Positions 11 to 62,206 of a DNA stretch of 64,000 nucleotides are shown in pieces. The stretch is from Hydrogenovibrio thermophilus (lineage in GTDB: Bacteria; Pseudomonadota; Gammaproteobacteria; Thiomicrospirales; Thiomicrospiraceae): NCBI RefSeq assembly GCF_004028275.1, contig NZ_CP035033.1, positions 1,302,001 through 1,366,000 on the forward strand. Direction: 5' to 3'. The notes below the pieces were generated by a model. The model was not told the DNA's origin, searched no databases, and saw nothing but the letters and a program-made list of their open reading frames with translations. Made by a program: the position numbers and the translations under genes. Every line of letters begins with the position of its first letter. The stretch's first letter is position 1.

Positions 11-36
11 AACCACCAGGCCTGGTGGTTTTTTAT
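11..36. terminator. Bidirectional terminator built on CCAGGCCTGG
   Basis: A perfect 20-bp palindrome (11-30) has the 10-bp core CCAGGCCTGG at 16-25. A-rich sequence precedes it and a T run follows, so it can end transcription in both directions. It lies about 30 bases past the stop of the minus-strand yebC gene. Confidence 0.85.
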
Positions 37-64
37 ACGTTTGAGAGCGATTAGAAATGCAGCG

Positions 65-784
65 TTACAGTTCGATGTCGAAGTAGACGTTTTGGACGTC
101 GTCTAGGTCTTCGAGCATTTCCAACAGTTTTTCGAACATTTCGCGGTCGTCGTCGTTTTCCAACGGTTTGGTCATTTGTGGCAGGAACTGGATTTCATCG
201 ACTTCGAAATCGATTGAGCCGAAGGCTTCAATCAGTGCAGTTTTGGCTTTGGCGTATTCGGTGTGCGGGACGAATACGCTGATTTTGCCGTCTTCATTTT
301 CAATGTCGGAAACGTCGACGTCGGCCATCAAGAGCGCTTCCAAAACGGCTTCTTCATCCTGACCGGCGAAGACCAGAATCGCCGAATGGTCAAACATATG
401 ACTGACGCTGCCTTGAGTTCCGATTTTACTTTTGGTCTTGGTAAAACAACTGCGCACATCGCCGAAGGTGCGGTTGGGGTTGTCGGTCAGGCATTCGACA
501 ATCACCATGCTGCTGCCCGGTCCATAACCTTCGTAACGGGCCACGGCGAAGTCTTCACCGCCACCGCCTTTGGCTTTGTCGAGCGCTTTGTCGATAACGT
601 GCGCGGGCACTTGAGCTTTTTTGGCGCGTTCGATCAGGCCTTGCAGGGCCAGGTTGCTGTCGGTTTCCGCGCCGCCGCTTTTGGCGCAGACGTAAATTTC
701 ACGACTGAATTTGCTGTAGACTTTGGCTTTGGCGTCAGACGTTTTCGCCATGGATTCTTTGCGGTTTTGGTAAGCTCTACCCAT
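65..784 (-). CDS. yebC: YebC/PmpR family regulator, YeeN type
   Basis: This 239-residue protein belongs to the YebC/TACO1 family, whose members act as DNA-binding regulators or as translation factors that relieve ribosome stalling. The N-terminus (MGRAYQNR, then a [11 protein letters not shown] segment) matches the YeeN-like branch rather than classical YebC, which starts with a GHSKW motif. The middle carries the family signature around [17 protein letters not shown] and a GYGP motif. The C-terminus is acidic ([11 protein letters not shown]). Length is typical. The ATG at 784 follows a GGAAAG ribosome-binding site. A strong terminator follows the gene. The family is certain; the exact role (transcription or translation) cannot be read from sequence. 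Confidence 0.93.
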
Positions 785-1142
785 CTTGTCTTTCCGTTAT
801 CGTTTTTTGAAAAGTGGAATTTTACACAATAACGTTTTGATGATGCAGGGAATTTAAGACTTCTTAAGTTTGAAAAAGGCGAGAGTAACCCGTTTTTACA
901 TGGGAAACGGTCATGGAAGGGGGTATAATTATCCGCATTGCTTTTACAGGGACGTGAGAGGAAGTTCGTTGAAGGCCCGAAAGCCGGGTGGAAAATTTTA
1001 ACTGTTTCATTTTCAATGAAATTTCGTTAATATTGCCGCCAATTCATCAACCGGCGTTGAGTGGTTCGTGGTAGGCCGCTCCGTAAAGAAGAGTTTGAAT
1101 GATTGATTTAACCGCAAAGCACATCGGGGTTGGGTATAACAC
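785..1142. other. 358-bp intergenic region, divergent control region
   Basis: This separates divergent yebC and the GGDEF response regulator. A TATAAT at 924-929 could be a -10 box for the plus strand, but no good -35 sits 16-18 bases upstream. GC-rich short inverted repeats occur near 970-990. I checked for a c-di-GMP riboswitch because the downstream gene makes c-di-GMP and found no convincing GEMM pattern. No small gene is supported. Confidence 0.4.
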
Positions 1143-2543: not shown

Positions 2544-2570
2544 AAAAACGCCCAGGCCTGGGCGTTTTTT
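2544..2570. terminator. Terminator between convergent genes, with CCAGGCCTGG core (2552-2561)
   Basis: AAAAACGC, the palindrome, then GCG and a T run form a perfect symmetrical hairpin with A and T tracts on both sides. It serves the GGDEF regulator (plus) and phnA (minus). It is one of the cleanest extended versions of the repeated palindrome. Confidence 0.9.
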
Positions 2571-7313: not shown

Positions 7314-8069
7314 TTAGGGCGCGTCGACGCTGTTCTCGGGAAGAAAAGCACGGTCCCAGGCCTGGTCGAATTGCCATTTTCGGGCCGGAAATGGTTTGGC
7401 CGTGTCTTCCCGGAGCAGGCTTTCAAAGTGCTCGCGTGAAATCAGGCGGGCGCCGAGTGATTTGAGGTGTTCGGTTTCCATCTGGGTGTCGATGATGCGA
7501 AAGCCCCAGGCTTTGAGTTGCTGGCACAGCGCCACCAAGGCGACTTTGGAAGCATCATTCATTTTGGCAAACATGGATTCGCCGAAAAAGACCTTGCCGA
7601 TGGCGACGCCGTAAAGTCCGCCGACCAGTTGATCCTGGTGCCAGACTTCGACCGAGTGGGCATGACCGGATTGATGCAGGCGGCTGTAAGCTTGTAGCAT
7701 CTCGTCGGAAATCCAGGTGCCATCCTGACCAGGCCTGGGCGTTTCCGCGCATTGGCGCATGACGTCGCCGAATGCCTGATCCAATGTGACGGTGAATTGT
7801 TGTTTTCGGATGGTTTTCACCAGGCTGCGCCGCACTTTGAGTGAATCGATAAATAAGACCGAACGCGGGTTTGGCGTCCACCATAAAATGGGGTCGTCTT
7901 CATTAAACCAGGGGAAAATGCCTTTGCTATAAGCGGTCAACAACCATTCGGGCGTCAAATCGCCGCCGATGGCTAACAAACCGTCCGGCTGTGCCAGCGC
8001 ATAATGGGTCGGCGGAAAGACCACCGGTTCGGTGTCGAGCCAAAAAGGTTGGTGAATTGACTTGGTCAT
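7314..8069 (-). CDS. aat: Leucyl/phenylalanyl-tRNA-protein transferase
   Basis: This 251-residue enzyme adds Leu or Phe from charged tRNA to proteins starting with Lys or Arg, creating N-degrons for ClpS-ClpAP. Conserved blocks are present: FPPTHYALAQPDGLLAIGGDL (19-39), YSKGIFPWFNEDDPILWWTPNPR (47-69), and HSVEVW with GGLYGVAIGKVFFGESMF. It completes a functional set with clpS and clpA nearby. Two exact copies of CCAGGCCTGG lie inside the gene (7356 and 7729), unusual for one short ORF. Confidence 0.97.
   Translation of the reverse strand: MTKSIHQPFWLDTEPVVFPPTHYALAQPDGLLAIGGDLTPEWLLTAYSKGIFPWFNEDDPILWWTPNPRSVLFIDSLKVRRSLVKTIRKQQFTVTLDQAFGDVMRQCAETPRPGQDGTWISDEMLQAYSRLHQSGHAHSVEVWHQDQLVGGLYGVAIGKVFFGESMFAKMNDASKVALVALCQQLKAWGFRIIDTQMETEHLKSLGARLISREHFESLLREDTAKPFPARKWQFDQAWDRAFLPENSVDAP
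7356..7365. repeat. CCAGGCCTGG copy inside aat
   Basis: Exact 10-bp palindrome in the 3' part of aat; flank continues TCG as in several intergenic copies. Confidence 0.95.
7729..7738. repeat. CCAGGCCTGG copy inside aat
   Basis: Exact palindrome, second copy in aat, flanked by GA on the left and GCGTTT on the right, which matches the extended consensus. Confidence 0.95.
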
Positions 8070-8199: not shown

Positions 8200-8209
8200 C
8201 CAGGCCTGG
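8200..8209. repeat. CCAGGCCTGG copy between aat and dnaE
   Basis: Exact palindrome in the divergent spacer, 53 bases before the dnaE start. It is one of the few intergenic copies not placed after a stop codon. Confidence 0.95.
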
Positions 8210-13925: not shown

Positions 13926-13965
13926 GATAGCCAGACTGGTTACAAAATGACCAGGCCTGGCTATT
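13926..13965 (+). terminator. Hairpin after acs containing CCAGGCCTGG (13951-13960)
   Basis: ATAGCCAG with ACTGGT on the left arm pairs with ACCAG and CTGGCTAT on the right. The right arm is the repeated palindrome. It is followed by TTTTCATATAA, so termination after acs is likely but perhaps partial. Confidence 0.65.
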
Positions 13966-16137: not shown

Positions 16138-17985
16138 ATGTCCGTTCAACAACAATTGAACTTTCTCAAACAAGTCGAACCGTTTTCGGCACTGAATGAA
16201 TCGACGCTACTGTCGTTGGCTGAAGCCTTGGATGTGGTGTATTTTCCTTTGGGTGAACGTCTGGAATTGTCTTCCGGCGAAGCTGCAAACGAAAATGCAT
16301 TTCTGTATTTTGTGATTAAAGGCCATGTGGCCGAGTTCGATGAAAATCAGCGCCAAGTGGCCGTTTACGGCAGTCACACGTATTTTGGCGAAAGCTTTCT
16401 ATTAAAACGTGCGGCTTATCGCCGTTACGATGTGATTGAAGAAGCGATTGTCTATCGCTTGCCGCAGGAAGCCTTTCTGGAAGTGATGCAACAACCGGAA
16501 ATCGAGGGCTTTTTCATTGATGACATCACCGCTAAACTCAACCGAATGCATGCCCAGATTCAAGCGGAGTCGTCCAGTGAGTCGCTGATGGGGGTGGTTG
16601 AAGACGCTCCGCGCCAAGCGTTGATCGAGGTGAGTGAAACGGAAACCATTCAGGCCTGTGTTCGGCAGATGCAGGCGTTGAAAACCGATGCGTGTGTGGT
16701 GGTGTTTCAGGACGAGGCTGAAAGAGGCATTGTCACGTCAATCGATTTGCTCAATGGGTTGGCGTTGAACGAGTACGCGGTGACGGATGCGGTCGGTCCC
16801 TTGGCGACGCGGCCGGTGATGACCGTGCATCAATTCGATTATTTGTTCAATGCGTTGTTGAAAATGACCAAGTATCGCATCAACCGTTTGGTGGTGCGCT
16901 CGGATGACGCCATGTTGGGTATTTTGCATCAGAAAGACTTGATGGGCATGTTTGCCAACCAGTCAGGCCTGGTGGTTTTGAGTATTCAGCAAGCCGAATC
17001 GTTTGACGAACTGAAGGGCGTGGCGGACCGCATTGATCACTTGGTGGTGAATTTGAATAATCGCGGGGTCAAGACGCATTACATCGCCAAATTGGTCAAT
17101 GAATTGCACCGAAAGATGCTGGAGCGGGTTTTTGAGTTCTTATCGCCATCGGAAGCTTTGCAAAAAGGGTGTTTGCTGGTGATGGGCAGTGAGGGCCGTG
17201 CCGAGCAGGTGATTCGTACCGACCAGGATAATGCGTTCATTTTGCCGGATACGGTTGAAATATCGCCAGGCCTGGCGACATTCATGCAAACGTTCAGTGC
17301 CCGTTTGATCGAGTTGGGTTTTCCGCCTTGCCCGGGGAGAATCATGGTGTCGAACCCGGTTTGGACTCGGCCGTTATCGGATTTCAAACAGCAACTGCGT
17401 GATTGGATGACCGCGCCTTCCGGCGATGCGTTTATGAACCTGTCGATTTTCTTTGATGCCGAGGCGGTGTTGGGCGATGAACAGTTGTTGCTCGACGCCA
17501 AGCGAACCATGATGAGCTGGTTGGATTCGAACCGTCACTTTTTACCGCACTTCGCCAAATCCGTGTTGCAGTTCGAGACGCCCATCGGCTTTTTCGGAAA
17601 GTTGGTGACCGACAAAGACGCCAAAGACCCGAAAATCGATTTGAAAAAGGGCGGGATTTTCCCCATCGTTCATGGTGTGCGTTGTCTGGCGTTGGAACAC
17701 GGTATTTTGAAAACCAATACCCATTGGCGTATTAAAGCCTTGATGGACATGGGGGTGCTGACCGAGCATTTTGGTATTGAACTGGGGGAAACGTTGAACT
17801 TTCTGAACACCTTGCGCTTGGAGTCGATGGTTGAGCAAATGCAGCTGGAGCAGGCACCGGACAACTTAATTCGGGTGTCGGGGCTGACGCAGTTGCAGCA
17901 AGACCTGCTCAAAGACGCGTTCAATGTGGTCAATCAGTTCAAAAAGCTGATTGAGCAGCATTATAAACTTCATGCGGTGATGTGA
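16138..17985 (+). CDS. cNMP-binding, CBS-pair and DUF294 nucleotidyltransferase protein
   Basis: A 615-residue regulatory protein. Domain order is a cyclic-nucleotide-binding-like beta-roll (about 10-135), two CBS motifs (about 155-285) and a DUF294 nucleotidyltransferase domain with GSEGR...DQDNA (about 352-368), then a helical C-terminal DUF294 domain. The nucleotidyltransferase motif resembles that of GlnD/GlnE-type enzymes, so the protein may modify another protein in response to an adenine nucleotide. Such genes commonly sit beside acs/actP and a DnaQ-like exonuclease, as here, which suggests control of acetate metabolism, but the target is unknown. A CCAGGCCTGG copy lies inside at 17266. 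Confidence 0.85.
   Translation: MSVQQQLNFLKQVEPFSALNESTLLSLAEALDVVYFPLGERLELSSGEAANENAFLYFVIKGHVAEFDENQRQVAVYGSHTYFGESFLLKRAAYRRYDVIEEAIVYRLPQEAFLEVMQQPEIEGFFIDDITAKLNRMHAQIQAESSSESLMGVVEDAPRQALIEVSETETIQACVRQMQALKTDACVVVFQDEAERGIVTSIDLLNGLALNEYAVTDAVGPLATRPVMTVHQFDYLFNALLKMTKYRINRLVVRSDDAMLGILHQKDLMGMFANQSGLVVLSIQQAESFDELKGVADRIDHLVVNLNNRGVKTHYIAKLVNELHRKMLERVFEFLSPSEALQKGCLLVMGSEGRAEQVIRTDQDNAFILPDTVEISPGLATFMQTFSARLIELGFPPCPGRIMVSNPVWTRPLSDFKQQLRDWMTAPSGDAFMNLSIFFDAEAVLGDEQLLLDAKRTMMSWLDSNRHFLPHFAKSVLQFETPIGFFGKLVTDKDAKDPKIDLKKGGIFPIVHGVRCLALEHGILKTNTHWRIKALMDMGVLTEHFGIELGETLNFLNTLRLESMVEQMQLEQAPDNLIRVSGLTQLQQDLLKDAFNVVNQFKKLIEQHYKLHAVM
17266..17275. repeat. CCAGGCCTGG copy inside the CBS/DUF294 gene
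   Basis: Exact palindrome with symmetrical extension (CG on both sides: TCG before, CGA after). A one-mismatch version (TCAGGCCTGG) occurs at 16963 in the same gene. Confidence 0.95.
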
Positions 17986-23284: not shown

Positions 23285-23294
23285 CCAGGCCTGG
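23285..23294. repeat. CCAGGCCTGG copy just after infB
   Basis: Exact palindrome 6 bases after the infB stop; the right flank CCGTTTTT fits the extended consensus and makes a weak terminator-like hairpin inside the operon. Confidence 0.95.
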
Positions 23295-24681: not shown

Positions 24682-25524
24682 ATGCCTGCGTCGTTTGACG
24701 AAACGCTTCCAATAGTCGATTTGCGGCCGGCCGACAGCTATGCATCCGCTCACTTCCGTGGTGCGACGCATTTACCCTGGCCGGATTTGAAAGAGCGTTT
24801 GTCGGAACTGCCACCGCGCCCGGCGGCCTTGCAGTTGATGGGCGAGGCCGCTGACCTGGCGGAAGCCAGCGCTTTTCTGAGCGAAAAAGGTTATGACATT
24901 GTCAAAGCCTTGGATGAAACCGCTTGTTTAAGCGAATTGGAAAAATCACCAGGCCTGGCGGTTTCCGGGCTGGCCTCCAAACGGCTGTGGCAGCCGAACC
25001 CTTTATTGGTCTGGTTGGTGGAATCGTCAGAATGCTTCGCTTCGACGTCTCATTCAACTTCGACGCAACGCCTTTGGGACATCGGTTGCGGCGGCGGCCG
25101 CGATGCGGTTTATATGGGGCAACAGGGGCTTGAGGTGACGGCCATCGACCAACAGGAAGCGGTTTTGTCCCGTGCCCGGCGATTTGCCGAACGGCAGGGC
25201 GTGACCGTAGATTGGAAACGCTGTTCGTTGGACGAAACCGGTTGTTTGCCGAATGAACCGGTGGATATGGTGGTGATGATGCGTTACTTGAATCGCGACC
25301 TGTTTCCGAGGTTGCGCCAAGCGATTCGTCCCGGTGGCCTGGTGGTGATGCAAACCTTTGTCGAGGGCGTGGAAGCGTTTGGTTCACCGAAAAACCCGAA
25401 CTTTATTTTAAAACGCGGCGAGTTGGCAAAAACCTTTTCCGACTTCACGATAATTGTTGATAAAATAGACACATTGAAAGACGGGCGTCCGGTTTCGTCT
25501 TTTATCGCACAAAAGAAAACTTAA
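24682..25524 (+). CDS. Degenerate rhodanese-like domain fused to a SAM methyltransferase
   Basis: A 280-residue fusion. Residues 1-85 resemble a rhodanese (IVDLRPADSYASAHFRGATHLP), but the place of the active cysteine is taken by LMGEAADLA (52-60), so sulfur transfer is unlikely. Residues 120-280 form a class I methyltransferase with motif I DIGCGGGRDAVYM (133-145) and a TehB-like C-terminus. The substrate is unknown. It begins 5 bases after truB, inside an otherwise conserved operon, and contains a CCAGGCCTGG copy (24949). Inference: the dead rhodanese may bind a sulfur or metalloid substrate. Confidence 0.75.
   Translation: MPASFDETLPIVDLRPADSYASAHFRGATHLPWPDLKERLSELPPRPAALQLMGEAADLAEASAFLSEKGYDIVKALDETACLSELEKSPGLAVSGLASKRLWQPNPLLVWLVESSECFASTSHSTSTQRLWDIGCGGGRDAVYMGQQGLEVTAIDQQEAVLSRARRFAERQGVTVDWKRCSLDETGCLPNEPVDMVVMMRYLNRDLFPRLRQAIRPGGLVVMQTFVEGVEAFGSPKNPNFILKRGELAKTFSDFTIIVDKIDTLKDGRPVSSFIAQKKT
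24949..24958. repeat. CCAGGCCTGG copy inside the rhodanese/methyltransferase gene
   Basis: Exact palindrome at the linker between the two domains, with an A-rich left flank (AAAAATCA) and CGGTTT on the right, as in intergenic copies. Confidence 0.95.
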
Positions 25525-28920: not shown

Positions 28921-31833
28921 ATGTCAAAGAATCATCCTGCATTTGAATTCATCACCGAGCATTTTATCGAATCGTTGAATATTACCGTTCAGCATTTCAA
29001 GCACAAGGTTACCGGAGCCGAGCATTACCACCTGGCGGCGGACGATCCGCAAAACGTCTTTATGGTTGCTTTACGGACCGTGCCGATGGATTCCACCGGT
29101 GTGGCGCACATTCTGGAGCACACCGTTTTGTGCGGCAGTGAAAAATATCCGGTGCGCGACCCGTTTTTCATGATGATTCGCCGTTCTCTGAACACCTTTA
29201 TGAACGCCTTTACCTCCAGTGATTGGACCGCTTATCCGTTTGCGACCGAAAACCGTAAGGATTTCCAGAACCTGTTGGAAGTCTATATGGATGCGGTGTT
29301 TTTTCCGAACATTGATCCGTTGGATTTCGCTCAGGAAGGGCACCGTTTAGAGTTTTCGGAGATGGACGATCCAACTTCCGATCTGACCTATAAAGGCGTG
29401 GTGTTCAACGAAATGAAAGGCGCGATGAGCTCGCCGGTTTCGACGCTTTGGCAAACCTTTTCCGCGGAAATCTATCCGACGTCAACTTATCACTACAATA
29501 GTGGTGGCGACCCGAAAGACATTCCGGAATTGACTTATGAGCAATTGGTGGAATTCCATCGTTACCATTATCATCCATCGAATTCGGTGTTCATGACTTA
29601 TGGCGATATTTCCGCCGCCGAGCATCAAACCCAGTTTGAAAGCCTGGCATTGCATCGCTTTAACGACCAAGTGGAACGCATTATGGTCGGCAAGGAAAAA
29701 CGCTACAGTCAGCCGATGCAGTTTGAAAACCGTTATGCCTTGAATGAAGACGATTTGTCGAAGAAAACCCACATCGTGCTCGGTTGGCTATTGGGCGAAA
29801 ACCAGAACCCGATGGACGTTCTGAAGGGACATTTGCTGTCCGCCGTGCTGCTCGACAACAGTGCGTCGCCTTTGCGTCAGGCATTGGAAGCATCGCATTT
29901 GGCCACGGCGCCGTCGCCGCTATGCGGTTTGGAAGACTCCAATAAGGAAATGGTTTTTGTGGCCGGGGTACAGGGTTCCGAAGCGGAACATGCCGACGAA
30001 ATCGAAACCTTGATTCTGGAGACGCTGGAGCGCATCGTACGAGACGGCATTGACACCGATCAAGTCGAGGCGATGTTGCATCAATTGGAGTTGTCGCAGC
30101 GTGAAATCGGCGGGGATTCTTATCCATATGGCTTGCAATTGATTCTGCAATCTCTGGCAGGCGCCATGCACGAAGGCGATCCGATTGCGCTATTGGATAC
30201 GGATGCGGCATTGCAAACTTTACGCGATGAAGTCACCGACCCGAATTTCATTCCGAACTTGATTCAAGAATGGATTCTGGATAACCCTCACCGTGTGCGC
30301 CTGACTTTGTCGCCGGACGATAAACTGTCGGCCGAACAGGATGCGGACGAAAAAGCCAAGCTGAAACGCATTCAGGATGATTTGAGTGACGCGGACAAAC
30401 ACGCGATAGTTGAGCGCTCTCTGGCCTTGAAAGCACGTCAGGAACAGTTGGATGATGCGTCGATCCTGCCGGAAGTGACCAAAGAGGACGTTCCATCAGA
30501 AATTAAGGATATTCAACCGGTTAAATCCGACACTGAAAGTCATTTAACGGCCTATCAGGCCGGGACTAACGGTTTGAGTTACCTGCAGATGATTTTGGAT
30601 CTACCCGATTTCACCGAAGACGAACAAGCGGTTTTGCCATTATTCAATGCCTGCATGACGGAGCTGGGTTCCGCCGGACGCGACTATCTGGAAACCCAAT
30701 CTTTGCAAGCGGCGGTTACCGGTGGCTTGAGTGCCAAATCGGCGGTACGAGCCAACCTGCATGACCGTGATGCGTTTTACAGCCATTTCATTTTGTCCGG
30801 CAAGGCTTTGAATAAAAATCAGCCAGGCCTGGCCGATTTGATGTTGGAAACGTTGGAGGAGGTGCGTTTTGACGAATTCGATCGTATTCGTGATTTAATC
30901 GGGCAAATCCGTTCGTCGATGGATCATGGCATTACCGGTAACGGGCATGGTTTGGCCATGTCGGCCGCCAACCAAACGGCCTCGCCGGTGGCGAACTGGA
31001 ACTTTAAGCGTTCCGGCTTCGCCGGCATTCAAACCATCAAGTCGATTTACAAATCGCTGGAGACCGACGGCGAACTGGAACGCATCAGTCAATTGTTCGG
31101 GGGGATTCAGCAAAAACTGTTGCAGGCCTCCAAGCAAGCGCTGGTGATTTCGGATGAAACCGGGTTGGATTCCGGCATCGCCAGCATCTCGGAATGGCAA
31201 GGCGCTTTATCGACAAACGCAATCGGTAACGGATTGCAGTTGGCGGTGCCGCACACTCCAATTCACCAGGCCTGGGTGACCAGCACGCAGGTGAATTTCT
31301 GCGCCAAATCGTATCCGGCGGTGACCGCCGGACATGAAGACGCGCCGAAACTGTCGATTCTCGGTGCCTGTTTGCGCAATGGCTTCCTGCATTCCGAAAT
31401 CCGCGAGAAAGGCGGGGCTTACGGTGGTGGCGCCAGTTACAATGCGGAAGCCGGCACCTTTGTGTTCTATTCGTATCGTGATCCGCGTTTGATGGAAACT
31501 TATGCCGACTTCGATCGTGCGCTGGATTGGGTCTTGAGCGAAGACGCCACCCAGGCGAAAGTGGACGAAGCAATTCTGAACGTCATCAGCGCCATGGACA
31601 AACCGGGTTCACCGGCCGGTGAAGCGCGTAAGGCGTTTTATCAACAGTTGTATGGTCGCACACACGCAATGCGCAAACAGTATCGGGAAGGGGTCTTATC
31701 GACCACGCTCGACGACATTCGTTCCGTGGCCGAGCGTTATTTGAAATCGGATGTCGCCTCGTCCGCCGTGTTGACGCACAGTGGCATGAGCGATACAGTC
31801 AAAGACAACGGGTTTGAAATCATCACGCTTTAG
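28921..31833 (+). CDS. M16C metallopeptidase, PreP-like
   Basis: A 970-residue clamshell zinc peptidase of the presequence protease branch (M16C). The inverted zinc motif HILEH is at 63-67 and the family block CGSEKYPVRDPFFMMIRRSLNTFMNAFTSSDWTAYPF directly follows. The C-terminal half has the substrate-binding RxxGGAYGGGA segment. No signal peptide is seen, so it is likely cytoplasmic and degrades peptides. Two CCAGGCCTGG copies lie inside (30823, 31266). Confidence 0.92.
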   Translation: MSKNHPAFEFITEHFIESLNITVQHFKHKVTGAEHYHLAADDPQNVFMVALRTVPMDSTGVAHILEHTVLCGSEKYPVRDPFFMMIRRSLNTFMNAFTSSDWTAYPFATENRKDFQNLLEVYMDAVFFPNIDPLDFAQEGHRLEFSEMDDPTSDLTYKGVVFNEMKGAMSSPVSTLWQTFSAEIYPTSTYHYNSGGDPKDIPELTYEQLVEFHRYHYHPSNSVFMTYGDISAAEHQTQFESLALHRFNDQVERIMVGKEKRYSQPMQFENRYALNEDDLSKKTHIVLGWLLGENQNPMDVLKGHLLSAVLLDNSASPLRQALEASHLATAPSPLCGLEDSNKEMVFVAGVQGSEAEHADEIETLILETLERIVRDGIDTDQVEAMLHQLELSQREIGGDSYPYGLQLILQSLAGAMHEGDPIALLDTDAALQTLRDEVTDPNFIPNLIQEWILDNPHRVRLTLSPDDKLSAEQDADEKAKLKRIQDDLSDADKHAIVERSLALKARQEQLDDASILPEVTKEDVPSEIKDIQPVKSDTESHLTAYQAGTNGLSYLQMILDLPDFTEDEQAVLPLFNACMTELGSAGRDYLETQSLQAAVTGGLSAKSAVRANLHDRDAFYSHFILSGKALNKNQPGLADLMLETLEEVRFDEFDRIRDLIGQIRSSMDHGITGNGHGLAMSAANQTASPVANWNFKRSGFAGIQTIKSIYKSLETDGELERISQLFGGIQQKLLQASKQALVISDETGLDSGIASISEWQGALSTNAIGNGLQLAVPHTPIHQAWVTSTQVNFCAKSYPAVTAGHEDAPKLSILGACLRNGFLHSEIREKGGAYGGGASYNAEAGTFVFYSYRDPRLMETYADFDRALDWVLSEDATQAKVDEAILNVISAMDKPGSPAGEARKAFYQQLYGRTHAMRKQYREGVLSTTLDDIRSVAERYLKSDVASSAVLTHSGMSDTVKDNGFEIITL
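30823..30832. repeat. CCAGGCCTGG copy inside the M16C gene
   Basis: Exact palindrome with an AATAAAAATCAG left flank and CCGATTTG on the right, closely matching the extended intergenic consensus. Confidence 0.95.
31266..31275. repeat. CCAGGCCTGG copy inside the M16C gene
   Basis: Exact palindrome, second copy in this gene; flanks are less A/T rich. Confidence 0.95.
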
Positions 31834-33671: not shown

Positions 33672-33695
33672 AACGACCAGGCCTGGCCGTTTTCA
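33672..33695 (-). terminator. Terminator after roxA built on CCAGGCCTGG (33677-33686)
   Basis: Read on the minus strand, AAAACGG, the palindrome, then TCGTTTTTT make a hairpin with a U tract 14 bases after the roxA stop. Confidence 0.8.
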
Positions 33696-34981: not shown

Positions 34982-34991
34982 CCAGGCCTGG
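34982..34991. repeat. CCAGGCCTGG copy between roxA and purB
   Basis: Exact palindrome, 80 bases past the purB stop, beyond the purB terminator; flanks GG and TCGAAATA. Confidence 0.95.
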
Positions 34992-36647: not shown

Positions 36648-37079
36648 ATGGTGTTCAAACGAGTGAAAAGCTTCTGTCTGGCGGTGCTATTGTTTTCGCC
36701 AGGCCTGGCCGTTTTGCCGACGGCGCAGGCGGCCGGGTTCGAGGAAAAAAAAGGGGAAACCCACTTTGAAGGACGCAACCGCGAGTTCCGTTGGGAAAGC
36801 GATCGGGTGCATTACAAATGCAGTTCCGGTAAGAAGGTGACGGTGATTTACATGAACATCGAACCGCAAGGCCATTTGGCGGTGATCGATTACGACGGTG
36901 TCATGCGGTTGATGAAGCCGTATCGCGCCTCGGGCGACAGTGTGAAGTATCTGGCACTGGACGAGCAAAACAGTCTGCGTTGGCACCGGGTTGGCGACAG
37001 AGGCTTTTTAAGTTACTTCCCGCCCGGCCAGCAAGGTGGCGCGAAGGTATTGGAAAAATTGTGTCAGGTGGACGATTAA
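36648..37079 (+). CDS. Secreted MliC-like protein (C-type lysozyme inhibitor fold)
   Basis: A 143-residue protein with a signal peptide (about 1-29, ending AQAAG) and a small beta domain resembling MliC/PliC: VHYKCSSGKKVTVIYMN, then a Trp/Phe-containing C-terminal strand. Such proteins inhibit C-type lysozymes in the periplasm. The N-terminus lacks a lipobox, so it would be soluble. The start at 36648 is chosen because the mature signal peptide and AGGGAG site fit it; a start 30 bases upstream would add charged residues. A CCAGGCCTGG copy encodes part of the signal peptide (36699). The fold assignment is moderate. Confidence 0.65.
   Translation: MVFKRVKSFCLAVLLFSPGLAVLPTAQAAGFEEKKGETHFEGRNREFRWESDRVHYKCSSGKKVTVIYMNIEPQGHLAVIDYDGVMRLMKPYRASGDSVKYLALDEQNSLRWHRVGDRGFLSYFPPGQQGGAKVLEKLCQVDD
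36699..36708. repeat. CCAGGCCTGG copy inside a signal-peptide coding segment
   Basis: Exact palindrome encoding Pro-Gly-Leu in the hydrophobic leader; flanks TTTTCG and CCGTTTT match the intergenic form, suggesting that the element is tolerated or favoured even in coding DNA. Confidence 0.95.
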
Positions 37080-37553: not shown

Positions 37554-37563
37554 CCAGGCCTGG
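37554..37563. repeat. CCAGGCCTGG copy after the C39-like gene
   Basis: Exact palindrome 18 bases past the stop; right flank CTGAAAACGG. Confidence 0.95.
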
Positions 37564-38539: not shown

Positions 38540-38549
38540 CCAGGCCTGG
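38540..38549. repeat. CCAGGCCTGG copy after the DUF4395 gene
   Basis: Exact palindrome 23 bases past the stop, followed by TTATTTTTG, so it can act as a terminator. Confidence 0.95.
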
Positions 38550-39371: not shown

Positions 39372-39381
39372 CCAGGCCTGG
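39372..39381. repeat. CCAGGCCTGG copy after the DUF4336 gene
   Basis: Exact palindrome 29 bases past the stop; right flank GCGATTTAG fits the extended consensus. This is the last copy before a gap of about 10.8 kb. Confidence 0.95.
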
Positions 39382-46656: not shown

Positions 46657-46689
46657 AGACGGTCTCTTTTTATAGGGGGCAATTAGGGG

Positions 46690-50157: not shown

Positions 50158-50167
50158 CCAGGCCTGG
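50158..50167. repeat. CCAGGCCTGG copy
   Basis: Exact palindrome; flanks TTTGA and TCGATTTTT, close to the full extended consensus. Confidence 0.95.
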
Positions 50168-50278: not shown

Positions 50279-50288
50279 CCAGGCCTGG
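50279..50288. repeat. CCAGGCCTGG copy
   Basis: Exact palindrome 23 bases before the small gene at 50312; flanks AAAATCA and TTAATATT. Only 121 bases from the previous copy. Confidence 0.95.
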
Positions 50289-50920: not shown

Positions 50921-50930
50921 CCAGGCCTGG
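50921..50930. repeat. CCAGGCCTGG copy beside the MITE
   Basis: Exact palindrome 10 bases outside the right target duplication; flanks ATAATCA and GCATTTTTAA fit the extended consensus. Confidence 0.95.
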
Positions 50931-51050: not shown

Positions 51051-51686
51051 ATGACATCGGCACGGATTTTAGCGGTGGCCAACCAGAAGGGCGGCACCGG
51101 CAAGACCACTTTAAGCATGAACCTAGCCGCAGGCCTGGTCAATCACGGCCGTGTGCTGTTGATTGATGCCGACCCGCAAGGTTCGGCCACCCAGTGGTGC
51201 CGGTTGTCGGCCGAAGACAAACCGTTTCCGGTTCCCGTCATCGCTGTGGCCGGGCATTTGGCTCACGAAGTGGAACGCTTTGCAAACGATTACGATTTTA
51301 TTGTCATTGATTGCCCGCCAACACTGGAAACCGGCGTCATGCAAGCCGCGCTCAAAGTGTCCCAAACGCTGTTGATTCCGGTGTTGCCGTCACCGATGGA
51401 TTTATGGGCCAGCCTTCGCATTGCCGAAGCCATTGAACAAGCCAAAAGGCACAACCGGCCCTTACAGCCCTATATCGTCATCAATCAGTTGGAACCCCGC
51501 AGTGCCTTATCCAACGCCATGCAAGAAGCTCTGCAAGAGTTCGATATTCCCGCCTTGAAAAGCGGCCTGCGTCGTCGCGCCGTTTATCGCAATGCGGCGG
51601 TGGATGGGCTGAGTGTCTATTGCATGGGCAAACGTGGCGAAATGGCCGCCAATGAAATCGACGATATTATCCAGGAGGTTTTATGA
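51051..51686 (+). CDS. Orphan ParA/McdA-like ATPase
   Basis: A 211-residue ParA-family ATPase with the deviant Walker A KGGTGKTT (13-20), Walker A-prime DADPQGSA (near 41-48) and DCPP switch. It lacks the N-terminal HTH of plasmid type Ia ParA, and is shorter than Soj. There is no ParB or parS nearby; instead a small basic protein overlaps its stop. Short orphan ParA proteins of this type position cargos such as carboxysomes, chemoreceptor arrays or pili on the nucleoid. A one-mismatch palindrome (GCAGGCCTGG) lies at 51129. Confidence 0.92.
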   Translation: MTSARILAVANQKGGTGKTTLSMNLAAGLVNHGRVLLIDADPQGSATQWCRLSAEDKPFPVPVIAVAGHLAHEVERFANDYDFIVIDCPPTLETGVMQAALKVSQTLLIPVLPSPMDLWASLRIAEAIEQAKRHNRPLQPYIVINQLEPRSALSNAMQEALQEFDIPALKSGLRRRAVYRNAAVDGLSVYCMGKRGEMAANEIDDIIQEVL

Positions 51687-52578: not shown

Positions 52579-53073
52579 TTATTTATTGAGGACAATGTCG
52601 ATGTTGAAGCCTTCATCCTCCGTTGGAGCCTGAAAGTAACGGTTGACCTGGTGAAACACCGTTTCGGTATCAAATTGGGCGCGTTCCGGTGATTCCAGTC
52701 GGCGTTTTTCCAGCCGCTGTAAGCACAGCGAATCGTCGGTTTGCAGATAAATTAATTTATGGGGAATCTGACTTTCGTCGAATAGCTCTTTAAACCAAGC
52801 CCGTTGTTTTGGGGTGTTGCCCGGAAAATCCATCACCACCGAAACGCCGGAATGCAACAGGCTTTGAACATGGCTTTTTAGCAAGGGTTTCAAGCGTGCC
52901 GAATACAGGATGTAATCGTCAAAGTTTTGAATTTCATCAGGATAAAGAGCTACCAACCAATCATCTTCAGACAGCAAAATCGCTTTGAGTTCGTTCGCCA
53001 GTTGTTTGGCGTAAGTGGATTTCCCCGCGCCCATTTTGCCGCTGAAAAAAATCAAAGTGCCTGTTTCGTTCAT
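52579..53073 (-). CDS. P-loop kinase-like AAA protein
   Basis: A 164-residue P-loop NTPase with Walker A FSGKMGAGKST (9-19) and a DDW/DFPG pattern of the AAA_33 (zeta-toxin/polynucleotide kinase-like) group, with a lid helix LEKRRLES. It likely phosphorylates a small molecule, nucleotide or cofactor. The start at 53073 follows AAAGGA; an upstream in-frame extension is Cys-rich and not conserved-looking. There is no antitoxin partner, so a zeta-type toxin is not supported. Confidence 0.8.
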   Translation of the reverse strand: MNETGTLIFFSGKMGAGKSTYAKQLANELKAILLSEDDWLVALYPDEIQNFDDYILYSARLKPLLKSHVQSLLHSGVSVVMDFPGNTPKQRAWFKELFDESQIPHKLIYLQTDDSLCLQRLEKRRLESPERAQFDTETVFHQVNRYFQAPTEDEGFNIDIVLNK

Positions 53074-53119
53074 TGCATATCCTTTGCAAATGGAGCATTC
53101 AATCAAATGACCAATATTA

Positions 53120-53129
53120 CCAGGCCTGG
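53120..53129. repeat. CCAGGCCTGG copy upstream of the kinase gene
   Basis: Exact palindrome inside the putative cassette array, flanked by ATATTA and TCGTTTTTACC. Confidence 0.95.
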
Positions 53130-53152
53130 TCGTTTTTACCGAAAGGTATTGA

Positions 53153-53209
53153 AGCAACCTCGAGTAATCAATCGAGTCTGACTCCATTGGTTTGAGTGCA
53201 TTGTTATGC
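53153..53209 (-). repeat. Degenerate attC-like site
   Basis: On the minus strand GCATAAC, five bases, then ACTCAA open the site, an imperfect CAATGGAGTC/GACTCGATTG stem forms the centre, and GTTGC closes it. The opening half matches attC well; the closing half is decayed. Confidence 0.4.
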
Positions 53210-54894: not shown

Positions 54895-56124
54895 CTAGTT
54901 TTCATTGTAGGGCGAATGTGCCCAGCAGTCCGCTGCATACTCATCAATCATATGTTTTTCTTCTTCGATAAATCTGGCCAGGCCTGCCGGGAAGGGGTTT
55001 TGGGCGAGCCAGTGGGTGGAGCGCATTTTGACGGGTGTGAAACCACGGGCGATTTTGTGTTCGCCGCCGGCACCGGGTTCGAATGTTTGAATGTTGTTTT
55101 CAATCGCGTAGTCGATGCCTTGGTAAAAACAGGTTTCGAAGTGCAGGTGTTTGACTTCTTCAATGCAGCCCCAATGGCGGCCGTAAAGCGTGGTGTCGGA
55201 GCGGAACATTAAGGCTCCGGCAATGCAGCGGCCGTCCAAATCGGCCAGCACCAGCAGAATTTGCTCGGGCATGGCTTGGGCGATGGCTTTGAAGAAGTCG
55301 AGATTGAGCGTGGGGGTGCTCCATTTGTCGATAAAGGTTTTCTGGTAGAAATAACTGAAATTGTCCCAATCGTCTTCGGTGGCGGTGTGGCCGTTGAGTT
55401 GACGAAATTCGATGCCGCTTTCGGTGACGGCTTTGCGTTCCTGGCGGATGTTTTTGCGCTTTTTCTTTTTGAGTTGGGCAAGAAAGTCGTCGAAGGTTTG
55501 ATAATCCTGATTGTGCCAATGAAACTGGCAGTCGTGACGGAAGTATTCGTTATCCCGTTTATGCGATTCCAACCAGGCCTGCTGTTCCGGGTTGGCGAAC
55601 AACCAGTGAACGCCGCTCATATTAAGATTTTCGGCTAAGGCCAAAGCGCCGTCAAATAACTGCGTTTGCAGTTGTTCGGCGTCGAAAGAGCCATTGCCGA
55701 TGGTTTCCAGCTGCGGGTGAATCAGAAAACGCTGTCCTTGCGCGGGGGTGTAAGGTACGGCGGAGACGAGTTTGGGGTAATAGGGCAAGCCGACGTGATT
55801 CCACGCTTGTTCCCAGGCCTGGTCAAAAACGAATTCGCCGTAATTATTGTGTTTTTCATACAACGGCAGGGCGGCCACGATGCGATCGCCGTGCGGGCTT
55901 TCATAAGTGAGGGTGAGATGGTGCGGCAACCAGCCGAAATGTTCGCCCACGCAATCGTGCGCTTCCAAAGCCGATAAAAAACCGTGTTTGAGGAAGGGGT
56001 TGTTGTCCTGCACCAAGGCATCCCATTGCGCAGCTTGCTCGGCGGAAAATTCGGTCAGGCCGTTGTGGACGTCGAGACGAAGTTTGGGGGTTTGCGCTGT
56101 GGTCGATTTTGGCTTTGAATTCAT
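54895..56124 (-). CDS. FemAB-like (DUF482) acyltransferase-fold protein
   Basis: A 409-residue protein of the FemAB_like/COG3146 group, built on the GNAT fold. Segments such as KKKRKNIRQERKAV and YGRHWGCIEEVKHLHFETCFYQGIDYAIENNI are characteristic. The family is annotated around peptidoglycan or N-acyltransfer, but the substrate is unproven. A CCAGGCCTGG copy lies at 55813, with near-copies (CCAGGCCTGC) at 54978 and 55573. Confidence 0.88.
   Translation of the reverse strand: MNSKPKSTTAQTPKLRLDVHNGLTEFSAEQAAQWDALVQDNNPFLKHGFLSALEAHDCVGEHFGWLPHHLTLTYESPHGDRIVAALPLYEKHNNYGEFVFDQAWEQAWNHVGLPYYPKLVSAVPYTPAQGQRFLIHPQLETIGNGSFDAEQLQTQLFDGALALAENLNMSGVHWLFANPEQQAWLESHKRDNEYFRHDCQFHWHNQDYQTFDDFLAQLKKKKRKNIRQERKAVTESGIEFRQLNGHTATEDDWDNFSYFYQKTFIDKWSTPTLNLDFFKAIAQAMPEQILLVLADLDGRCIAGALMFRSDTTLYGRHWGCIEEVKHLHFETCFYQGIDYAIENNIQTFEPGAGGEHKIARGFTPVKMRSTHWLAQNPFPAGLARFIEEEKHMIDEYAADCWAHSPYNEN
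55813..55822. repeat. CCAGGCCTGG copy inside the FemAB-like gene
   Basis: Exact palindrome; right flank TCAAAAACG. Confidence 0.95.
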
Positions 56125-57825: not shown

Positions 57826-60399
57826 ATGTTAGAAGCCTATCGTCAACATGTGGCTGAACGTGAAGCGGAAGGAATTCCACCGTTACCGATGGATGCGGAG
57901 CAAACAGCACAACTGGTTGAATTGATTAAAAACCCACCGGCGGGTGAAACGGATTTTGTATTGGATTTGTTTGTGAACCGTGTGCCGCCGGGCGTTGACG
58001 AGGCGTCTTACGTGAAAGCCAGCTTTTTGGCGGACGTGGCGGCGGGCAAAGTGTCTGTTGATTTGATTTCCCCGGTGAAAGCCACCTTCTTGTTGGGCAC
58101 CATGCTGGGCGGTTATAACGTTCAGCCGTTGATCGGTTTGCTGGACAGCGATAAGGCCGAAGTGGCCGAAGAAGCGGTGAAAGCCCTTTCCAAGACCCTA
58201 TTGGTGTATGAAGCTTATCACGACGTGGTGGAGAAATCGAAAACCAACGATTATGCCATGCAGGTGTTGAAATCCTGGGCGGAAGCCGAGTGGTTCCTGG
58301 ATAAGCCTAAGATGCCGGAACAAATCACTGTGACCGTCTTTAAAGTGGAAGGCGAAACCAACACCGATGACTTGTCGCCAGCGACAGCGGCTTGGTCGCG
58401 TCCGGACATTCCATTGCACGCCAAGGAAATGTTGAAAGCGCGCATGGACGATGTGGACGGCACCATTGCCGAGTTGGAAGCCAAAGGCCATCCGGTTGCT
58501 TATGTGGGCGACGTGGTGGGCACCGGTTCGTCGCGGAAATCGGCGATGAACTCGGTGATGTGGTTCTTCGGGAATGACATTCCTTACGTGCCGAACAAGC
58601 GCCAAGGCGGCGTGGTGTTGGGCGGTAAAATCGCACCGATTTTCTTCAACACGGCGGAAGACTCCGGTTCTTTGCCGATTGAATGTGAAGTAGACAATTT
58701 GAACATGGGTGACGTTATTACGATTCACCCATACGACGGCAAAATTACCAACGAAGCGGGCGAGGTGGTTTCCACTTTCGAATTGGCGCCGGACACCATG
58801 CCGGACGAAGTGCGTGCCGGTGGGCGTGTACCGCTGATTATCGGCCGTGGTTTGACGGACAAAGCGCGTGAAGCGCTGGGCATGGAACCGTCCGACGTCT
58901 TTATCCGCCCAACGGATAAATCCCAAGCCGAGCACGGTTATACGCTGGCGCAGAAAATGGTCGGTAAAGCCTGCGGTATCGAAGGCGTGCGCCCGGGCAT
59001 GTACTGTGAGCCACGCATGACCACGGTCGGGTCGCAAGACACCACCGGTGCCATGACGCGTGACGAAATGAAAGAATTGGCTTGTTTGGGCTTTTCGGCG
59101 GATTTGGTGATGCAATCGTTCTGCCACACTGCGGCCTATCCGAAGCCGGTGGACATCAAACTGCAACACTCCTTGCCGGATTTCATGACCAGCCGTGGCG
59201 GTGTGGTTCTGCGTCCGGGTGACGGGGTCATTCACTCTTGGCTGAACCGTCTGTTGTTGCCGGATACCGTCGGTACCGGCGGCGATTCGCACACCCGTTT
59301 CCCAATCGGGATTTCCTTCCCGGCAGGGTCAGGCCTGGTGGCTTTTGCCGCAACCTTGGGCGTGATGCCGCTGAACATGCCGGAGTCGGTTCTGGTGCGT
59401 TTCAAAGGTCAAATGCAGCCGGGCATTACCTTGCGTGATTTGGTGAACGCCATTCCGTATCAAGCGATTCAGGACGGTTTGCTGACCGTCGAGAAGAAAG
59501 GTAAGAAAAACATCTTCAATGGTCGTGTTCTGGAAATCGAAGGCTTGGAGCATTTGAAAGTGGAGCAGGCGTTTGAGTTGTCCGACGCGTCCGCCGAGCG
59601 TTCCGCCAACGGCTGTGTGGTGAAATTGGGTCAAGACCCGATTATTGAATATCTGAAATCCAATATGGCGTTAATCGACTGGATGGTCGAAAACGGTTAT
59701 CAGGATGCCAAGACCTTGTTGCGTCGTCGTGACGAAATGCAGGCGTGGATTGATAACCCTGAGTTGATGGAAGCGGATGCCGATGCGGATTACGCGGCGG
59801 TGATCGAAATCGACTTGGAAACCATCAAAGAACCAATCGTGGCGTGCCCGAATGATCCGGACGACGTGAAACTGATGTCTGACGTGGAAAACGCTAAAAT
59901 CGACGAAGTGTTCATTGGTTCCTGTATGACCAACATCGGTCATTATCGTGCCGCCGGTAAGGTGCTGGAGCAAATGGGCAATGTGCCGACCCGTTTGTGG
60001 ATTGCGCCGCCGACGAAGATGGACGAGCGTCAGTTGATTGAAGAAGGTTATTACAGCATTTACGGTCGAGTGGGTGCTCGGACGGAAATGCCGGGTTGTT
60101 CCTTGTGTATGGGGAACCAGGCGCGTGTCGCCGATGGCGCGACGGTCTTCTCGACCTCAACCCGTAACTTCCCGAACCGTTTGGGGAACGGCGCGAACGT
60201 TTACCTGGGGTCGGCGGAGCTGGCGGCGGTGTGTTCGGTCTTGGGTCGTATTCCGACGGTGGCCGAGTACATGGATGCCGTGGCGATGTTGGATACCATG
60301 TCCGACGATGTCTACCGTTATCTGCAGTTTGACGAAATGGCCGACTACAAAGTGGAAGAGCCGAAGAAATTGTCGGACATCGGTGTGGCCGTCGCGTAA
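57826..60399 (+). CDS. acnB: Aconitate hydratase B
   Basis: The 857-residue [4Fe-4S] enzyme interconverts citrate and isocitrate. The bacterial AcnB order is visible: N-terminal HEAT-like domain (1-160), swivelling domain with [19 protein letters not shown] and [10 protein letters not shown], then the catalytic domain with GGDSHTRFP and the three cluster cysteines (one in the FIGSCMTN block and two in [10 protein letters not shown]). GGAGAG precedes the ATG. A strong terminator follows. Confidence 0.97.
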
Positions 60400-60470: not shown

Positions 60471-60480
60471 CCAGGCCTGG
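60471..60480. repeat. CCAGGCCTGG copy between acnB and the GGDEF gene
   Basis: Exact palindrome in the convergent spacer, just beyond the acnB terminator. Confidence 0.95.
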
Positions 60481-60497
60481 TGACTATTGGAATTGGA

Positions 60498-62078
60498 TTA
60501 ACCGACGGTCACGCGGTTGCGTCCGTCTTCCTTGGAACGATACAACAAATTGTCGCCACGGTGCATCAGGCTTTCCGCGGTGTCTTTGTGCTTCAGTTCG
60601 GTCACGCCAAAACTGGAGGTGATGTGCAGATCGTGCGCATCAAGCGTTTCCAACTTTTTACGCAAGCGTTCCGCGACTTTCTCGGCGTCTTCCAGATAGG
60701 TTTCGGGTAACAATATCACGAATTCCTCACCCCCCCAGCGGGCAAAGACGTCCTTGTTGGTCAAGCCGTCTTCGACGGCACGCGCTACGGTTTTGAGCAC
60801 TTTGTCGCCCATCAAGTGACCGTGGGTGTCATTGATTTTTTTGAAGTGGTCAATGTCGAAAAACACCAGGCTCAGCGGCAACTGTTTGGATTTGCTCAGT
60901 TTCATCTGCTCGTTCAAGGCGCGTTTGAACACATTCCGATTCGGCAGGCTGGTCAAGCTGTCGGTCCGCGCCATTTTGTGCAACAAACGTTTCTGACGAA
61001 TCTGGTTACGCAGGTAGAAGAAGGTCAGTAAGCTGATAATGAACAGCAGGCTTTCATTTACGACGTTGATTTTCATGAAGTTTTCAGTCACGATGCGCAA
61101 GCCGGGTTCATTAATGTAATTGACGATGTAACCGACGGCTTGGCCTTCGGTATTTTTCAATGGGAAGAAGGTGACCAAATAATAGGTTTGGTTAATATTA
61201 GTCACTAAATGACAAACATTGCATTGGCCGAGTACGCCTTGGAAGTCATCGTGCAGTTTCTCGTTGATGGCGTGAATGCGTTTTCGGGAAATGCTGTTTG
61301 GGCGTTTCTCATGGTATTGCACGCTTTTGTCCACCACATAGTTTGCGGAGATTTCCGACGGTGCGTAGTTGCTTTGCTCGTTTTCGAACACCTTGTGTTT
61401 GATCAGGTCTTTTTTCAACAGCAGGTCGTGCGCTTCGTTGTGGTCGTGGGTGATGAGGTGGTAAATGGCGTCAATGGAGAAGGAAATCTCCACACTGCCG
61501 ACCAACTCGCCCTGGTAATGCAAGGGATAGACATGACGGAAGCCGTTGAAAATGCGGCCTTCCTCAAACCCGAAAATCGGCTTTTGAGTTTTGTGCACTT
61601 GCTCGATGCTGTAACGGACGTCGGATAAATCGTCCCCGAATTTCGCCGGGCGGTGAAAGCGCAAAAAGCTGGAGCTGTCCGGTAAATGGAAGTGCAGTTG
61701 TCGGATGTATTCCGATTTCAGCAGTCGATACAACGGCTCCAGACGGTTGTAGAGTGTTTCGCGCACCTCGTTGCGCACGACCGCGTCGCCATGATAAGCC
61801 TTGGCCATCAAGCTAAGAATGTCGTCCTGATTGATGGCGGAGGTGAAGATGACGTCGGCATTGATGCGCAGCGCTTTCTGGCTGGATTTGAAACTGTTGA
61901 TTTCCTGCTGACTGGCGTAGTGAATCAAATGCTGTTTCTGGGTGCTGTAATTGCTGTAAGTGGTCCAGATGCTGCCGGCACTGAGTAAAATGAATACCGC
62001 GATGGAGACGATAAGCGCCAATCGCCGGGAGGGCAGATTTTTCCAGCGTCGGAATGTTCTTTTGGCAGGTGTCGGCAT
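60498..62078 (-). CDS. Membrane diguanylate cyclase with periplasmic heme-type CXXCH sensor
   Basis: A 526-residue protein: cytoplasmic start, TM1 (about 21-38), periplasmic sensor (40-340) with a Cache-like half (LHFHLPDSSSFLRFHRPAKFGDD) and a CNVCH motif (286-290) matching the c-type heme attachment signature, TM2 (about 341-356) and GGDEF (about 365-525). The active loop is GGEEF (449-453); the position of the RxxD inhibitory site reads TNKD, so product inhibition is not expected. Inference: heme-based redox or gas sensing regulates c-di-GMP output. Confidence 0.9.
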   Translation of the reverse strand: MPTPAKRTFRRWKNLPSRRLALIVSIAVFILLSAGSIWTTYSNYSTQKQHLIHYASQQEINSFKSSQKALRINADVIFTSAINQDDILSLMAKAYHGDAVVRNEVRETLYNRLEPLYRLLKSEYIRQLHFHLPDSSSFLRFHRPAKFGDDLSDVRYSIEQVHKTQKPIFGFEEGRIFNGFRHVYPLHYQGELVGSVEISFSIDAIYHLITHDHNEAHDLLLKKDLIKHKVFENEQSNYAPSEISANYVVDKSVQYHEKRPNSISRKRIHAINEKLHDDFQGVLGQCNVCHLVTNINQTYYLVTFFPLKNTEGQAVGYIVNYINEPGLRIVTENFMKINVVNESLLFIISLLTFFYLRNQIRQKRLLHKMARTDSLTSLPNRNVFKRALNEQMKLSKSKQLPLSLVFFDIDHFKKINDTHGHLMGDKVLKTVARAVEDGLTNKDVFARWGGEEFVILLPETYLEDAEKVAERLRKKLETLDAHDLHITSSFGVTELKHKDTAESLMHRGDNLLYRSKEDGRNRVTVG

Positions 62079-62196
62079 GGTATAAAAAAATCAAATGCAG
62101 TTAGGTGAAATATTCATTATACCATTTCTGCAAAATAACACTAAAACTCAGTGGGTTATACCGTGAAGTTTACGCCAAGTCGGACATTGAAAATGC

Positions 62197-62206
62197 CCAG
62201 GCCTGG
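62197..62206. repeat. CCAGGCCTGG copy after sppA
   Basis: Exact palindrome 18 bases past the sppA stop; read on the minus strand it is followed by GCATTTTC, a weak terminator. Confidence 0.95.

Follow-up and report, generated by a model that had tools for sequence, protein, structure and literature searches.

Genome-enriched uptake sequences have been described for Pasteurellaceae and Neisseriaceae (PMC7811141). In Campylobacter jejuni, recognition of methylated DNA is essential for uptake (PMC8468864), and highly iterated palindromes (HIP) such as cyanobacterial HIP1 represent another described class of abundant short words (Elhai 2015, PMC4390886). Here we analyze a 10-bp palindrome, CCAGGCCTGG, of Hydrogenovibrio thermophilus (G000), whose genome is a single 2,612,894-bp contig; positions 1,302,001–1,366,000 of this contig, 64 kb in all, are hereafter called the window. 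The motif is probably a DNA uptake sequence for natural transformation, built from half-sites and marking a third bacterial lineage with sequences of this kind.

Abundance, anatomy, and placement of the motif

The window contains 24 exact copies of CCAGGCCTGG, compared to a mean of 0.03 in dinucleotide shuffles, none of 100 of which reached 24; all coordinates listed in the initial annotation of the window were correct. The entire genome has 673 copies, i.e., one per 3.9 kb, and no copies of the reversed word taken as a control. In a 464-kb sample, comprising the window and 20 further stretches, 132 exact copies were found and about one was expected under an order-3 Markov model, itself trained with the motif included; this comparison had been proposed in the initial annotation, and the count lies far above the model. 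Seven of 11 genomes of the same genus, counting G000, carry 367–677 copies, the range in 58 genomes of the family including G000 is 0 to 856, and single genomes of 35 other families contain 0–35 copies (0–13 for the reversed word). No description of the motif was found in the literature searched, which was mostly open-access and of capped scope, so that an earlier description is possible. The terms "uptake sequence" and "Thiomicrospira" were not mentioned together in that literature, and among the matches listed for the 10-mer as an exact word, only unrelated subjects appeared.

The distances between the first 100 sites of the genome are distributed nearly exponentially (coefficient of variation 1.02), apart from one 33-kb gap, and no regular spacing was found among these sites. 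Two low-GC stretches of 20 kb contain 3 copies, versus 129 in the other 424 kb, and a 5-kb bin of the window with 42% GC holds four. The two stretches, G000:C1:520001-540000 (L023) and G000:C1:2470001-2490000 (L037), have a GC content of 35%–43% and contain two copies and one copy, respectively; the PF01555 methyltransferase of this genome falls inside the range of the former. The 33-kb gap includes a low-GC defence island. The 20 kb sampled there, a region chosen because it is copy-free (G000:C1:326001-346000, L252), has low GC and encodes a Wadjet system (JetA, DUF4194, SbcC-like, and JetD genes), a SoFic-like Fic protein, a 37-kD nucleoid-associated protein (NA37), and a WYL-domain protein.

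The site, profiled on 130 copies with both arms pooled, consists of a strict core within symmetric AT tracts and spans about 38 bp, conservation reaching position +14 on each side and nothing being conserved beyond. Flank position +1 is seldom A, +2 is mainly C or G, +3 is G or A, +4 is mainly T or A, and positions +5, +6, and +7 are T in 68%–70% of cases, followed by a weaker A/T pair at +13/+14. The agreement between left and right arms is only slightly above independence, and AT tracts flank coding copies too, being weaker there. The A-rich, symmetrical flanks that had been noticed in the window were thus upheld on a larger set. One-mismatch forms numbered 66 in the 464 kb, versus 132 exact copies; 43 of them differed at the outermost base pair (4.2 expected) and 23 at the inner four pairs (16.9 expected). 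This clustering indicates that the outer pair is softer than the inner eight bases, which are close to all-or-none. The initial annotation had named an over-representation of one-mismatch forms equal to that of the exact form as a refuting result; the inner forms are near chance, and the outer-pair forms are about 10-fold in excess.

A symmetric footprint of about 38 bp, with AT tracts roughly a helical turn from the dyad, has a dimer-like appearance. It would suit an alternative that we regard as unlikely, although deserving of some weight, in which the motif is the dimeric binding site of an abundant cytoplasmic DNA-binding protein, a nucleoid organizer or global regulator, and the dialects described below reflect co-evolution of the protein and its sites. 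The near all-or-none inner core and the ordinary, near-exponential spacing speak against it. The flank profile also comes close to refuting an origin from remnants of small mobile elements (repetitive extragenic palindromes or miniature inverted-repeat transposable elements). High copy number and intergenic enrichment would agree with such remnants, but no similarity extends past +14 in the 130 copies, low-GC stretches hold few of them, and genes contain in-frame copies, making this origin scarcely credible.

In the window, 15 of 24 copies are intergenic by a simple greedy set of open reading frames (ORFs), although 89.7% of it is coding. Of the 127 sampled copies located away from stretch ends, ORFs contain 63, another 63 fall entirely between genes, and a single copy overlaps an ORF end; with 9.4% of positions being wholly intergenic, the enrichment is about fivefold (P = 5e-31). 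Most intergenic copies (53 of 63) are at most 100 bp 3' of a stop codon, where 45% of intergenic positions lie (P = 2e-10), and 18 of 63 precede a start codon by no more than 100 bp, a zone with 48% of intergenic positions. Of 43 cores that lack the complete outer pair, only 7 are intergenic, and this rarity points to the complete 10-mer as the unit in this species.

The concentration of copies behind stop codons would be expected of a motif acting mainly as a transcription terminator or RNA element, and the copies at 16, 2552, and 33677 extend to T-tract hairpins, as judged by eye rather than by folding. Against this, half of the copies are inside ORFs, and the exact sequence is retained where pairing alone would suffice. 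A mainly terminating role is thus very improbable; termination is more likely a by-use, as described for Neisseria and Pasteurellaceae (PMC1852404). The presence of copies within genes, and their greater frequency just 3' of stops than near starts, also count against a nucleoid or regulatory protein.

Conservation, dialects, and half-sites

The relative G009 is 89.2% identical to the window across the 94% of it that could be aligned. Of the 24 window sites, 22 align with G009; 21 are exact there and one has a single mismatch, while random 10-mers are identical in 39.7% of cases (P = 5e-8). In the reverse comparison, 22 of the 26 sites of G009 could be aligned with the window, each of them being an exact match. 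Core bases are identical to G009 at 99.1% of 229 positions, compared to 82.7% of 1,100 positions located 16–40 bp away. In congeners with about 75% identity, where most sites remained unaligned by blastn, exact sites were found in 2 of 8 cases in G008, 1 of 4 in G005, and 1 of 4 in G004 (controls 6%–8%); none of four aligned sites is exact in G010, which has another dialect (control 5%). In the gene at 24682-25524, CCA GGC CTG G occupies identical codon positions of the alignment in G000, G009, G008, G005, and G004, while adjacent codons differ among these genomes and protein identity to the distant congeners is 42%–55%. Conservation therefore operates at the DNA level, and the motif is kept by something acting on DNA itself. 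Such site-by-site conservation, as well as the slots common to different dialects, would also be compatible with a chromosome-binding protein.

The relatives of H. thermophilus, in which the initial annotation had suggested counting the motif, carry forms that differ by genome. A form of the motif, palindromic or one-armed, is present in 38 of 62 genomes of the family. Dialect A is the palindrome CCAGGCCTGG, dialect B is the core CAGGCCTG with other outer bases, and dialect C is the palindrome ACCGGCCGGT. The one-armed dialects, AAAATCTRCCAGGYTGGG and AAAACTCAACAGGCCGGG, are non-palindromic, have a single A-tract, and are carried by five relatives. The core was counted in 62 genomes and the 10-mer in 58, i.e., all except G093 to G096; the core-rich G093 and G095 are outside the 10-mer count, and G095 was entered as dialect A in the gene-association test, with no effect on the counts. 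Dialect B genomes (G021, G025, G035, and G053) contain 466–900 cores and only 15–37 copies of the 10-mer, for example, 900 versus 27 in G025. Dialect C is represented by 1,025 copies of ACCGGCCGGT in G031, compared to 0–15 in the other 61 genomes.

The one-armed form is AAAATCTRCCAGGTTGGG in G010 and G001, AAAATCTGCCAGGCTGGG in G003 (19 copies in 160 kb), and AAAACTCAACAGGCCGGG in G029, with which G055 was grouped on the basis of two or three copies in 7 kb. The word of G003 is CCAGGCTGGG and not CCAGGTTGGG. The pattern MCAGGYYGGG occurs 340, 383, and 419 times in G003, G010, and G001 (controls 8, 10, and 12), 596 and 355 times in G029 and G055 (controls 27 and 7), and at most 82 times in the other 57 genomes (G004, control 79). 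The strands are used in a balanced manner: 149/191 in G003, 177/206 in G010, 206/213 in G001, 292/304 in G029, and 172/183 in G055. One-armed sites also occur as inverted pairs, an arrangement known from terminators that contain the uptake sequences of Neisseriaceae and Pasteurellaceae. An excess of the same pattern was observed in some palindrome carriers, namely G036 (79 versus 12), G040 (35 versus 4), and G032 (35 versus 8), perhaps reflecting a mixed or second dialect. In addition, a longer GC-rich unit (GCCGCGGATGCCG...) is repeated about 27 times in G003:C1:1-60000, possibly as an array of clustered regularly interspaced short palindromic repeats or similar.

After the A-tract, dialects A, B, D, and E, the last two being the one-armed forms, have CAGG in common, while dialect C shares only GGCC. 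In a tree of the PNPase protein for 11 genomes of one genus, rooted at the midpoint without an outgroup, the one-armed G001, G003, and G010 sit on one side of a branch with 100/99 support, as expected of dialects that track phylogeny. Dialect A is present in four of seven genera and is for this reason the likelier older form. No dispersed 10-mer of this kind was detected in 40–120 kb each of G012, G018, G037, G043, G047, G049, G024, G042, and G050, tandem arrays in G018 and G042 aside. One array, in stretch L228 of G018 (about 9899-10053), is an 11-bp tandem repeat (AACCTCTTATA) of about 15 units. The remaining 15 of the 24 non-carriers were sampled at 0–28 kb each, part of it masked, and more dialects may exist among such thinly sampled genomes.

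Dialect E, the one-armed form of G001, G003, and G010, occupies some of the slots of dialect A. When one-armed sites of these genomes were mapped by tblastx onto palindrome-bearing stretches, 19 distinct sites mapped and 5 of them lay at most 20 bp from a palindrome, compared to 0.3 expected for random mapped positions; part of this excess stems from the common intergenic preference. In aligned coding sequence only, three of four one-armed sites are at most 11 bp from the palindrome of a relative (0.02 expected). In the first slot, AAA ATC TAC CAG GTT GGG of G001 is opposite AAA ATC TAC CAG GCC TGG of G000, so that the half-site with the A-tract is the same and the other half differs. In the second, CCC AAC CTG GCA GTT TTT of G010 is opposite CCA GGC CTG GTG GTT TTG of G004, with the right half-site in common and the left one different. 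In the third, within gene 24682-25524, the one-armed site is 11 bp from the palindrome and in a different reading frame. Since two slots keep one half-site, the palindromic and one-armed words are forms of one element, and the half-site rather than the palindrome is the unit common to them. Neither this unit nor the other dialects could be recognized from the window, on which the initial annotation was based.

The site of a chromosomal protein is the chief rival reading; one-armed forms and in-place replacement of half-sites count against a plain homodimer, though not decisively. A single A-tract, as found in the one-armed dialects, would be odd for such a dimer, and any change in the protein would have to be followed at hundreds of its sites without a drive.

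Methyltransferases, competence genes, and a proposed uptake mechanism

Iterated palindromes may also arise through a methyltransferase combined with methylation-directed mismatch repair (the Elhai model for HIP) or, at CCWGG, through Dcm/Vsr very-short-patch repair. The gathering of one-mismatch forms at the outermost base, as in HIP1 (PMC4390886), would fit this origin, as would the genome of H. thermophilus itself, where a C5 methyltransferase gene precedes a Vsr mismatch endonuclease gene by two genes, with one ORF between them (about 1.223-1.226 Mb; L158: 1213-2445 and 3281-3697). However, neither C5 methyltransferases (PF00145) nor the PF01555 family, each present in 24 of 62 genomes, show any relation to the motif. 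With weak matches counted as present, 16 of 38 carriers lack both families, among them G009, where 21 of 22 window sites are retained, and G031, the genome with 1,025 copies of ACCGGCCGGT. No methyltransferase common to carriers was found in a search of these two families, which covered neither other families nor Vsr. Patch repair by Dcm/Vsr was rejected on the evidence of G009, and the HIP model for want of a fit in the survey. Dialects lacking a palindrome and the intergenic enrichment are further points against such an origin; the words of A and C and the core of B are palindromic, those of D and E are not. The Dcm-type and HIP1-like readings of the initial annotation were weakened by the same two observations, the carriers without either family and the non-palindromic dialects of five relatives, and the check for a cognate enzyme that it had proposed gave no fit in the two families. 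We consider this origin improbable.

The competence genes ComEA (matches at E ≤ 0.001) and ComEC were found in 53 and 56 of 62 genomes, respectively. ComEA is present in 37 of 38 carriers versus 16 of 24 non-carriers (P = 0.0014), and ComEC in 36 of 38 carriers. Among genomes at least 90% complete, ComEA occurs in all 33 carriers versus 14 of 18 non-carriers, and ComEC in 32 of 33 carriers; the sole carrier without ComEA, G093, is 82% complete.

Of the roles listed in the initial annotation, that of a DNA uptake sequence proved the best fit, in view of the AT flanks, the intergenic and 3'-end placement, the dialects sharing half-sites and slots, and the near-universal ComEA among carriers. Abundance, footprint, placement, dialects, and slots are, in our analysis, what an uptake sequence under drive predicts. 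The tag would serve self-recognition in this gammaproteobacterial family, presumably the Hydrogenovibrio/Thiomicrospira group. The recognized unit would be a half-site consisting of an A-tract, about 4 bp, and a GC-rich box (CCAGG here), and in H. thermophilus two half-sites placed head to head would form the palindrome AAAAnnnnCCAGGCCTGGnnnnTTTT. The core may be bound at the cell surface by a receptor, probably one of the minor type IV pilins, the flanking AT tracts helping DNA to bend or melt for entry through the secretin, and ComEA and ComEC could then draw the DNA in. If tagged alleles were taken up and recombined preferentially, the resulting drive would repair damaged copies and seed new ones in permissive places. 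A change of receptor could start a new dialect, the old one being replaced partly in the same slots through alteration of one half-site. Somewhat less firmly, we incline to the view that these marine sulfur and hydrogen oxidizers represent a third, independent uptake lineage, in which doubling of a half-site gives a palindromic tag and dialects switch in place between palindromic and one-armed forms, even in coding sequence.

Several points weigh against an uptake function. Of the 18 non-carriers with a completeness of 90% or more, 13 have both ComEA and ComEC, and the motif thus cannot be predicted from these genes. Because entire genera lack ComEA, its association with the motif has a phylogenetic component, and the curated cut-off is passed by only 40 of the 53 genomes with ComEA. 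The ComP receptor family PF16732 was above the cut-off in none of the 62 genomes (ComN, another proposed receptor, was not searched), and GspH/FimT (PF12019) was found in three, none of them a carrier. Neither family thus gave usable matches as a receptor candidate, and in the sampled stretches of G000 a script scan for the leader motifs of type IV pilins revealed none. The literature searched gave no data on uptake or transformation for the group, and known uptake sequences of Neisseriaceae and Pasteurellaceae are not palindromic, unlike the tag of H. thermophilus. Comparable abundance and conservation could also result from a chromosome protein that recognizes a specific site.

If true, a third lineage would mean that sequence-specific uptake has repeated origins. 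Because a palindromic tag lacks an orientation, it would separate models with a receptor reading one side from those with a pair of receptors gripping the DNA. Dialects sharing a half-site in the same gene slot would be a direct record of the replacement of a self-recognition code, and the tag, if confirmed, would also give simple access to genetic tools in these environmental organisms.

Individual copies and comparison with described systems

The copies in the window are exact in G009 except where noted. Among the intergenic ones, copy 1 (16..25) has arms extending to an A/T-tract hairpin, terminator-like by eye, and is not alignable to G009. Copy 2 (2552..2561), also terminator-like by eye, and copy 23 (60471..60480) lie between convergent genes. 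Copy 5 (8200..8209) has dnaE 53 bp downstream, and copy 8 (23285..23294) is 7 bp 3' of the infB stop. Stop codons likewise precede copy 12 (33677..33686, 23 bp, terminator-like by eye), copy 15 (37554..37563, 19 bp), copy 16 (38540..38549, 23 bp), copy 17 (39372..39381, 30 bp), and copy 24 (62197..62206, 19 bp), the last having one mismatch in G009 (CTAGGCCTGG). The spaces holding copy 6 (13951..13960, between acs and actP) and copy 13 (34982..34991) contain in G010 a one-armed site and an inverted pair of one-armed sites, respectively. Copies 18 (50158..50167), 19 (50279..50288), and 20 (50921..50930) are also intergenic, copy 19 being not alignable to G009. The 10.8 kb between copies 17 and 18 (39382-50157) are motif-free and encode a PLD/VTT protein, an esterase beside a zinc alcohol dehydrogenase, a DJ-1 family protein, and a 263-aa protein with a penicillin-binding transpeptidase domain.

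Coding copies include copies 3 (7356..7365) and 4 (7729..7738) within ORF 7314-8069, copy 7 (17266..17275), which is exact in G008 as well, copy 14 (36699..36708, by the simple ORF set), copy 21 (53120..53129) within ORF 52579-53187, and copy 22 (55813..55822) within the FemAB-like ORF 54895-56124. Copy 9 (24949..24958) is the one kept as CCA GGC CTG G in gene 24682-25524; its one-armed counterpart in G010, 11 bp off, was located by ungapped protein alignment. ORF 28921-31833 holds copies 10 (30823..30832) and 11 (31266..31275), the latter being exact also in G008, G005, and G004 and having one mismatch, at the outer base, in G010. The one-mismatch forms of the window are exactly the five named in the initial annotation, with 1.1 matches of at most one mismatch expected; TCAGGCCTGG (16963..16972 and 59329..59338), GCAGGCCTGG (51129..51138), and CCAGGCCTGC (54978..54987 and 55573..55582) all differ at the outer base only.

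The motif resembles the DNA uptake sequences (DUS) of Neisseriaceae as these are described by Frye et al. 2013 (PMC3630211): many dispersed copies of a short word, dialects that agree with the phylogeny, terminators containing inverted pairs, and permissive intergenic regions. DUS are, however, described as non-palindromic (PMC1852404) and have a common CTG core, while three dialects are palindromic here; their receptor is ComP, and ComP_DUS was not found in the 62 genomes.

As in Campylobacter jejuni, a short palindromic word would govern the uptake of self-DNA, but discrimination there is methylation-dependent. The methylated motif of that species is RAATTY, and this word is not known to be enriched as an exact 10-mer. 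In the uptake signal sequences (USS) of Pasteurellaceae, the AT tracts are located on one side.

HIP1 is likewise a GC-rich palindrome present in very many copies, some relatives having other palindromes in its place, and its one-off forms are biased to the outer base; HIPs generally accompany a matching methyltransferase and occur about once per kb, compared to once per 3.9 kb here, although some HIP1-rich genomes are described as lacking the CGATCG enzyme (PMC4390886). In the family analyzed, by contrast, PF00145 and PF01555 are not common to carriers, and non-palindromic dialects exist. The USS, which also belong to Gammaproteobacteria, share with the motif a strict inner core, flanking stiff AT tracts that aid uptake (PMC7811141), copies in terminators, and the existence of two dialects (PMC12616744, PMC1852404). 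They differ in being described as non-palindromic (PMC12616744), in their unrelated words, and in the status of the uptake bias, which is proven for USS and predicted for the motif of H. thermophilus.

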